Of a stretch of DNA of 64,000 nucleotides, positions 8,086-11,586 are shown piece by piece. The position numbers were made by a program, and so were the translations under genes. The DNA comes from Exiguobacterium aurantiacum (lineage in GTDB: Bacteria > Bacillota > Bacilli > Exiguobacteriales > Exiguobacteriaceae). The notes beneath the pieces are model-generated. The model did no database searches and had not been told where the DNA came from. It saw only the letters and a list, made by a program, of their open reading frames with translations. Each line of letters opens with the position of its first letter. The first letter of the stretch is position 1. The stretch spans positions 152,501-216,500 of the forward strand of contig NZ_CP101462.1 in the NCBI RefSeq assembly GCF_024362205.1. The letters are read 5' to 3'.

Positions 8086-8192
8086 TTTCCGTTTTGTCAC
8101 TGTGAAATTATGTGATTTTCTTGACGAATGGAGGTGTGATTTGTACTATTAAGAGCGTGACCTTAGAAACGGAAGGACACCCAGTACGAAAC

Positions 8193-8345
8193 AAGCGCCA
8201 GAACTCTTCGGAGTTGACGAGGTTGGAGGTTATCGAGTTTTCGGCGGATGCCTCCTAGTCGCCTGTCACGACTACAAGCAAACCCTCAAAACGCCCGGGC
8301 GACCGGACGGCCAAAGGGGAGCGCGTTGACAGCTCTTAGAAAAAG
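8193..8345 (+). promoter_or_regulatory. glmS ribozyme-riboswitch (GlcN6P-activated)
   Basis: Self-cleaving ribozyme in the glmS leader. The conserved core is readable: AAGCGCCAGAAC at the cleavage site (cut just before G8195), GTTGACGAGG-TTGGAGGTTATCGAG, TTTTCGGCGGATGCCTCC, and a downstream P3/P4 region with AAAGGGGAGC. On binding glucosamine-6-phosphate it cleaves its own 5' end and destabilises the mRNA, giving feedback control. The 3' limit is approximate. Confidence 0.95.
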
Positions 8346-10186: not shown

Positions 10187-10192
10187 ACGGTA

Positions 10193-10224
10193 GGCCAAGA
10201 TCTTTCGGGATCTTGGCTTTTTTT
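10193..10224 (+). terminator. glmS terminator
   Basis: Stem GCCAAGATC / GATCTTGGC with seven T. Confidence 0.93.
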
Positions 10225-10231
10225 GTTGTGA

Positions 10232-10260
10232 TTTACGTCATGCGAACCGGCTTGTATACT
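10232..10260 (+). promoter_or_regulatory. Sigma-A promoter of the leader peptide / MFS gene
   Basis: TTTACG at 10232-10237 and TATACT at 10255-10260, spacer 17. Positioned to transcribe the leader ORF and attenuator. Confidence 0.65.
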
Positions 10261-10289
10261 GAAGGTATAACGACTAAGGAGAGAACGCC

Positions 10290-10343
10290 ATGCGAATCCA
10301 ACTAGTTAACACATTCATCCTGCCGGAGGACGTGCGTTCATAA
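10290..10343 (+). CDS. 17-residue leader peptide of the MFS gene
   Basis: Short ORF MRIQLVNTFILPEDVRS preceded by AAGGAG at about 10276-10281 with good spacing. It lies between the promoter and the efflux gene and ends 60 bases before it. Its last codons (10324-10330, CGGAGGA) form one arm of an RNA switch. Known precedent: drug-inducible resistance genes such as erm, cat and some tet and MFS genes use leader peptides on which a drug-stalled ribosome remodels the mRNA. The role here is inferred from this layout; the inducing compound is unknown. Confidence 0.68.
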   Translation: MRIQLVNTFILPEDVRS

Positions 10344-10393
10344 GTTGGCCACCTCCTCCGATGATTCACTGTATCGGAACAAACTATCGGAGG
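10324..10393 (+). promoter_or_regulatory. Translational attenuator with mutually exclusive stems
   Basis: Segment 1 CGGAGGA (10324-10330, inside the leader ORF) pairs perfectly with segment 2 TCCTCCG (10354-10360). Segment 2 extended, CCTCCGAT (10355-10362), also pairs perfectly with segment 4 ATCGGAGG (10386-10393), which contains the exporter's Shine-Dalgarno. CCGAT can also pair with ATCGG at 10373-10377 (segment 3). Pairing 1:2 would leave the ribosome binding site open; 2:4 would close it. Confidence 0.65.
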
Positions 10394-10403
10394 AACCATA
10401 CAA

Positions 10404-11586
10404 TTGAAGATTCAACAGCTTTACTATGCGGTCACGAGTTCGCGCTCGCTCATCATACAGATGGTGTTCACGTTGAACGCCATCTATTATGTGACGACCG
10501 CCGAGTTGAATGCGTTACAACTCGTCTTGATTGGAACGATTTTAGAAGTATCGATTTTACTATTCGAGCTGGCCACCGGTCTCGTCGCCGATTTATATGG
10601 GCGGAAGCGGTCAATGGTCATCGGCATCGGTTTGATTGGATTGGCCCATTTGCTAGAAGGGGGCATCCCTGAATTTTGGGCCATCGCGGTCGCGTCAGCG
10701 CTATGGGGTATCGGCTGGACGTTCATCAGCGGGGCCGAACAGGCATGGATTGCCGATGAGATGGGGAATGACGGGTTAGAACAAGTGTTTTTGCGAGGCG
10801 CTCAATATAGTTCGCTCGGCCGCTTCGTCGGAATTGGGCTTGCCGTGCTCCTCGCCGAAGTCACGTCCGTCCAAACGACAATCGTGCTCGCCGGTGGGAT
10901 GTTGGTCATGCTCGCGATCATCGCATGGCGCGTCTTGCCAGAGACGCGGTTCGAACCGATCACGCGGGCCGATACCTCGAACCTCGTGCAAGCAAAACGG
11001 ACGGTTCGGGACGGATACACCCATATCCGTGGCAATTCGATTCTCGTCGGCTTGGCTGCCATCACGCTCGTCTGGGGTCTCGCTAGTGAAGGATTCGACC
11101 GGTTATGGGGTGCGCATTTGATTGAGACGTTCCAGTTGTCGGAACAGGCGGCCGTGTATTGGTTCGGCTTGTTCTATGCCGTCGCGTTTCTATTCAACAT
11201 GCTGGTGTTGAAAGGTGTCGAGCTATACGTCAAAGGACGCTATGCGACGACCTTGTTTTGGTTCAACGTGTTGCTCATCGTTGCGATGCTTGCTTTCGCT
11301 TTGGTCGGACAGTTTTGGGTGGCCGTGTTGCTGTATTGGACGATTGCGGCACTGCGCAACGTGCACTACCCGCTTATGAGCGTCATGACGAACGAGCGGC
11401 TCCCGTCGAAAGGCCGGGCCGACGATTTTGTCGATGTTCGGTCAGGTCGACGCGTTCGGTCAAGTCGCCGGGGGACCGTTGATTGGACTGCTCGCCCTGT
11501 ACACGTCGATTCAAGGAGGGCTCGGGGCAGCGGCGCTCTTGCTCCTCCCGATGTTGGTTTTCTTGAGAAAAATCAAGCACCATTGA
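10404..11586 (+). pseudogene. MFS efflux transporter, frameshifted near the C-terminus
   Basis: Major facilitator superfamily exporter of about 12 helices. The MFS motif between helices 2 and 3 reads GLVADLYGRKRSM. The TTG start at 10404 has GGAGG at 10389-10393. Around 11420-11421 an extra base shifts the frame: upstream reads GRA, and the +1 frame then continues with a hydrophobic C-terminus (LSMFGQV, GGPLIGLLALYTS, VFLRKIKHH) stopping at 11586 just before a terminator. Without correction the frame runs to 11639 through the terminator with a polar, arginine-rich tail, so helices 11-12 would be lost. Either a real inactivating mutation or a sequencing error. Resembles drug or macrolide exporters, substrate unknown. 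Translation appears governed by the upstream leader peptide and attenuator. Confidence 0.75.

Follow-up and report, generated by a model that had tools for sequence, protein, structure and literature searches.

The window analysed here, a stretch of 64,000 nucleotides, comes from an Exiguobacterium chromosome, as judged from relatives in the genus and from named homologues. It carries an MFS exporter gene preceded by a short leader ORF, and this unit lies 3' of glmS, whose glmS ribozyme is found at 8183-8334. The features of the locus are:

10192..10219, + strand: intrinsic terminator of the upstream glmS (terminator scan; 12-bp stem and T run).
10232..10260, + strand: predicted sigma-70-type promoter TTTACG-17-TATACT, ∼30 nt 5' of the leader ATG (a weak prediction, as the consensus scan found no more sites than chance).
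10276..10281, + strand: Shine-Dalgarno (SD) sequence of the leader ORF, AAGGAG (read from the sequence).
10290..10343, + strand: leader ORF of 17 codons, MRIQLVNTFILPEDVRS followed by a stop (read from the sequence).
10298..10303, + strand: possible protector arm CCAACT, which pairs with AGTTGG at 10343-10348 (MFE fold).
10324..10330, + strand: strand 1, CGGAGGA, an anti-anti-SD within leader codons 12-14; its GGAGG occupies leader nt 36-40.
10354..10362, + strand: strand 2, TCCTCCGAT, an anti-SD located 3' of the leader stop and common to both exclusive helices (read from the sequence).
10386..10394, + strand: strand 3 (numbered 4 in the initial annotation), ATCGGAGGA, the exporter SD, with a 9-bp pairing to strand 2 (read from the sequence).
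10404..11586, + strand: MFS exporter gene with a TTG start (Pfam MFS_1 and NCBIfam matches, comparison with loci L002-L004, and ORF list); the end given is the frame end of intact relatives, and the opening frame as sequenced reaches 11639.

The glmS terminator sets the leader-exporter unit apart from glmS. A terminator hairpin is also present 5' of the gene in loci L002-L005, and the promoter sequence is near-identical in loci L002-L004. The initial annotation had described a 17-codon leader with its own AAGGAG ahead of the MFS gene, and the positions of both were confirmed. It had also placed a perfect pairing between 10324-10330 and 10354-10360, which is exact: CGGAGGA is the complement of TCCTCCG. 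The second pairing, annotated as 10355-10362 with 10386-10393, is real but one base longer, extending over 10354-10362 and 10386-10394. Both helices, 1:2 and 2:3 (2:SD), use strand 2 and are mutually exclusive, as had been claimed. The exporter TTG lies 60 nt from the leader stop and 9 nt past the SD strand. In the MFE fold of a leader that carries no ribosome, the pairing of the protector arm encloses strand 1.

Both strands of the window were scanned for this architecture (an SD, a leader of 8-30 codons, a 7-mer pairing after its stop, and a rival pairing that involves the SD of an ORF at least 100 codons long). The leader-exporter site was the sole match, and 60 first-order Markov sequences of 64 kb gave none. 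Free folding of the 170-nt region was not unusually stable (z -0.51), so that stability alone does not flag the site, and the evidence lies in the specific architecture and its conservation. Transcription attenuation was ruled out, as there is no T-run terminator between the leader and the exporter gene.

The exporter matches Pfam MFS_1. Its best NCBIfam model is the tetracycline efflux protein TetA(P) (3e-62, 210.8 bits; cut-off 750), followed by Tet(40) (2.6e-55, 188.2 bits; cut-off 800), and both scores fall far short of the cut-offs used for naming. Its identity to a plasmid TetA(P) is 32%. TetA(P) has in its second membrane segment a pair of essential glutamates with a spacing of seven residues; the pair is kept in the exporter, whose LEVSILLFE aligns with LELACFIFE of TetA(P). 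From its sequence, the protein is likely a tetracycline pump, and since TetA(P) and Tet(40) are the nearest curated families, tetracycline is a likely inducer. Relative to three relatives (L002-L004), the window exporter has an extra C at 11419/11420, which causes a +1 frameshift past ∼339 codons and may reflect a genuine lesion or an error in the sequence. A second Exiguobacterium exporter (L034/L006, in G014) is split by a one-base deletion at about codon 243.

Contig and genome searches yielded homologous exporters of 53-97% identity, which together with the window gave 35 distinct upstream regions. The set spans at least nine genera: Exiguobacterium, Bacillus (B. mediterraneensis) and, among the Planococcaceae, Paenisporosarcina, Indiicoccus, Psychrobacillus, Solibacillus, Lysinibacillus, Rummeliibacillus and Kurthia. 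Loss of the leader from homologues that keep the exporter had been put forward as a sign against the switch; instead, the leader ORF was present in all 35 regions (counting L072 and L087), preceded by a G-rich SD in all homologues, and in 33 of the 35 the layout is compact and strand 1 is present. Leader length ranges from 16 to 19 codons, and the distance from the leader stop to the gene start is 36-68 nt among the compact-layout loci. While leader length varies by up to three codons, the position of strand 1 is constant: in 34 of the 34 loci that have it, GGAGG (GGGGG in one) lies at exactly leader nt 36-40, and most leaders of the set have GGAGGG at nt 36-41. This anatomy, its conservation and the fixed ruler are directly visible in the aligned upstream regions.

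Two loci have an unusual layout. L072 was considered as a leaderless locus and rejected as such; its leader is intact and has been displaced ∼200 nt farther upstream by an insertion of that length (∼1240-1430), which bears inverted repeats and separates the leader from strand 2. In L087 the leader has 18 codons and lacks the strand 1 GGAGG, the spacer is longer, and the SD hairpin CACCTCCGT / ACGGAGGG is kept in the last 170 nt before the exporter. Exporters of 42% identity or less were without this leader. Locus L068, 5' of a 35% identical exporter, may have an unrelated leader, MSKNYTWILNENTEGTIISK, in which GAGGG comes one codon later than in the leaders described here.

When 399 Bacilli genomes were searched with a covariance model of the leader region (R1), only the ten upstream regions of this exporter and one marginal chance match were recovered. 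The other matches of the model in the window (32115 and 61345) were at chance level and were discarded. No Rfam family matched over the leader at gathering score, the weak matches seen at E values up to 10 being at chance level, and we found no published description of this leader family.

The leader peptide is not conserved. Among codons with a single change, 216 were nonsynonymous and 66 synonymous, with no third-position bias, and codons 2-11 change mostly nonsynonymously even among close relatives. No common stall motif was visible among the leader peptides.

The two helices were evaluated in a gapless three-strand alignment of 29 distinct core sequences. In the 1:2 helix 81.7% of cells were paired, against 36-52% in slid registers. 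In this helix 21 cells had changed on both sides, where shuffles gave 8.8, and the covariation score was 0.246, where shuffles gave 0.175; neither value was reached in any of 500 shuffles. In a swap test, strand 1 flanks fitted the strand 2 of their own locus better than that of other loci (p 0.00025). Shared ancestry inflates both shuffle and swap tests and is not removed by shuffling, hence the sequence support for the 1:2 helix is good but not conclusive. The 2:3 helix was paired in 77.7% of cells. Its covariation was not above shuffles among the 29 core sequences, and strand 3 flanks fitted their own strand 2 no better than swapped ones. This is because its core is an invariant SD/anti-SD pair: the CTCC core of strand 2 is nearly invariant, and the exporter SD GGAGG is invariant. 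Thus, of the compensatory changes that the initial annotation had proposed to look for in relatives, those of the 1:2 helix are found, while the 2:SD helix is supported by invariance, not by covariation.

To follow the effect of ribosome position, 29 loci were folded with ribosomes placed on the leader, and the probability that the exporter SD is free was computed. In these equilibrium folds, which ignore co-transcriptional kinetics, the median SD-free probability on an unoccupied leader was 0.11. It was 0.15 for a ribosome arrested at the start codon (front edge +17), reached 0.45 for front edges between +23 and +29, and fell to 0.02 once the ribosome stood at the leader stop. The opening at +17 is thus small, and becomes clear only from about codon 2 onward. 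The mean 1:2 probability rose in parallel, from 0.31 with no ribosome to 0.65 at +17 and ∼0.9 at +23 to +29. For the window's own site, in whose equilibrium folds the 2:SD helix dominates, the SD was free with a probability of 0.00 with no ribosome, 0.07 at +17, 0.14-0.28 at +23 to +29, and 0.00 at the stop. In six loci (L035, L040, L073 and L089-L091) the 1:2 helix was paired even without a ribosome. A codon-shuffle control indicated that strand 1 is hidden above expectation on average (mean quantile 0.28), not at every locus and not at the window's own; a protector effect of local leader hairpins on strand 1 is therefore suggestive. The three computed states suggest that early arrest opens the exporter and completion of the leader closes it. 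The claim that an early stall would expose the SD and passage of the ribosome would favour 2:SD has thus passed the tests that can be made at the level of sequence, namely leader retention, 1:2 covariation and ribosome-position folding.

We consider it probable that the leader is a translational attenuator that senses early ribosome arrest, most likely by tetracycline, without a stalling peptide. When no drug is present, ribosomes would reach the leader stop and cover strand 1, leaving strand 2 to pair with strand 3 and keep the exporter silent. A drug that arrests ribosomes on the first few codons would leave strand 1 free to pair with strand 2, strand 3 would be released, and the exporter would be made. 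On a leader that carries no ribosome, strand 1 would tend to be masked by local hairpins, with a mostly off exporter as the predicted outcome. The dynamics in the cell, the inducer and the exporter substrate are parts of this reading that we infer. Tetracycline blocks the entry of tRNA into the A site. It fits as the inducer on two grounds: the nearest exporter families are tetracycline pumps, and in vivo the drug causes ribosomes to arrest at start codons (PMC4909307; PMC12121999).

The plasmid tet(L) leader, said to take part in the inducible tetracycline resistance of B. subtilis (PMC9387203), has the same anatomy. It has 20 codons, with GAGGG at leader nt 37-41, within the GGAGGG position of most leaders described here, and in both cases codons E13-G14 are used. 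A CCCTC follows the leader stop, and the gene SD is GGAGGG. The pairing strands expected of a tet(L)/tet(K)-type leader (GAGGG, a CCCTC-like strand after the stop, and the gene SD as its alternative partner) are present at our locus. Folding is also similar, the tet(L) SD being free with a probability of 0.20 on an empty leader, 0.37-0.59 when a ribosome occupies codons 1-6, and 0.19 when it has reached the stop. The tet(L) leader differs in that it precedes another MFS family (Tet(L)/Tet(K)/Tet(45) type), and its peptide is unrelated to those described here except for the E-G codons and their position. The R1 model did not match the tet(L) leader in L097 and so lends no support to common descent of the two leaders, although a class defined by function would not call for sequence homology.

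A search of plasmid records with the 20-residue tet(L) leader placed 289 of 347 in the 95-99% identity band, which corresponds to one mismatch. In this commonest class, all 13 records sampled (L112-L116 and L119-L126, from enterococcal and lactococcal plasmids) had the leader cut short, by TGA or TAA at codon 3 or by TAA at codon 5. The sampled plasmids have tet(L) annotated downstream of the truncated leader, at full length wherever a complete prediction is given. If completion of the leader represses, these leader-truncated alleles, which are common on enterococcal plasmids, are predicted to be constitutive, whereas under an erm-like rule they would be off. The truncated leaders hence favour the polarity proposed here. 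An alternative for the stops is relaxed selection, as these plasmids often also carry tet(M). Other tet(L) leaders have no stop of their own and run into the tet(L) start region (L097, 1601-1700; L118, 151-260), and in L117 (151-200) a deletion fuses the leader to tet(L).

It can be asked whether the same architecture could work in another way. One model, proposed for tetA(L) of B. subtilis, is that the internal GGAGG of the leader holds ribosomes that have completed it, and that these are passed to the gene start by re-initiation or transfer when the RNA folds 1:2. In the 17-codon leaders GGAGG lies 8 nt upstream of the last sense codon, an SD-like spacing that is found in the tet(L) leader as well, and the ruler has a fixed length counted from the start of the leader. 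Nevertheless, the stop-to-start distance of 36-68 nt is variable and long for coupling, leader length varies while strand 1 stays in place, and the common tet(L) leaders that stop at codon 3 or 5, where the internal SD would not be reached, are nonetheless followed by a full-length tet(L). We regard this route as unlikely for the leaders studied here.

Slightly less probable still is peptide-dependent stalling of the classical erm/cat type, in which a macrolide, a phenicol or another drug would arrest the ribosome at a defined leader codon. The general anatomy of a leader ORF and a hidden SD is the same, and leader length is nearly constant; but codons 2-11 are free to change, the peptides share no evident stall motif, and the exporter is outside the macrolide and phenicol families. 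As the peptide is not conserved, an erm-type peptide-specific stall is unlikely. A comparably low probability is given to the view that the SD hairpin merely lowers basal translation of the exporter, with the leader a passive relic of a unit that is decaying in this strain. The invariant 2:SD hairpin, its dominance in the window's folds, and the frameshifts in the window exporter and in G014 speak for it, but it leaves unexplained the fixed strand 1 in 34 loci, the covariation of the 1:2 helix and the retention of the leader in every region. A broader and clearly more tentative extension of the attenuator reading is that the leader may be a peptide-independent sensor of ribosome position, with strand 1 as a ruler at nt 36-40 from the AUG, off when untranslated, on upon early arrest and off upon completion; that this design may be common to unrelated tetracycline exporter families; and that single early nonsense mutations, of the kind widespread in plasmid tet(L), may render it constitutive.

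The proposed logic is that of trp attenuation shifted to translation initiation, for which a special stalling peptide is not needed. In the trp-operon attenuator of enteric bacteria, an early stall favours one helix and a ribosome at the leader stop the other. Here too, ribosome position would choose between the helices, and the state computed without translation is off; the trp attenuator acts on a terminator, whereas the leader described here would act on an SD, without a terminator T run. In attenuators of the ermC and cat type, the translation state of a leader ORF likewise decides whether the ribosome binding site of the gene is hidden (reviewed in PMC5418344), and our locus shares with them the hidden gene SD and the alternative fold. 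These systems use drug- and peptide-specific stalling; at our locus the conserved stall peptide is absent, the peptide varies freely, and strand 1 acts as a competitor that needs to stay uncovered. In the toiL uORF of E. coli topAI-yjhQ, ribosomes held at the start codon of the uORF by tetracycline unmask a downstream SD (PMC12121999). In that case the SD is paired with the uORF itself, a pairing disrupted by the stalled ribosome, whereas here the leader carries an anti-anti-SD; and toiL regulates a toxin-antitoxin system rather than an exporter.

The initial annotation had invoked erm and cat leaders as precedents. The attenuator logic is supported, but the tet(L) leader is the better match, given that the peptide varies and shows no evident stall motif. 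Attenuation at the level of translation is already known for tetracycline resistance, tet(L) being the closest case; what is new is the leader family, together with its exporter, its phylogenetic range and the ruler. These data add a conserved regulatory RNA, absent from Rfam, ahead of a chromosomal tetracycline-type exporter of environmental Bacillales, and give a testable account of how a leader could sense a decoding-blocking drug without a special peptide.
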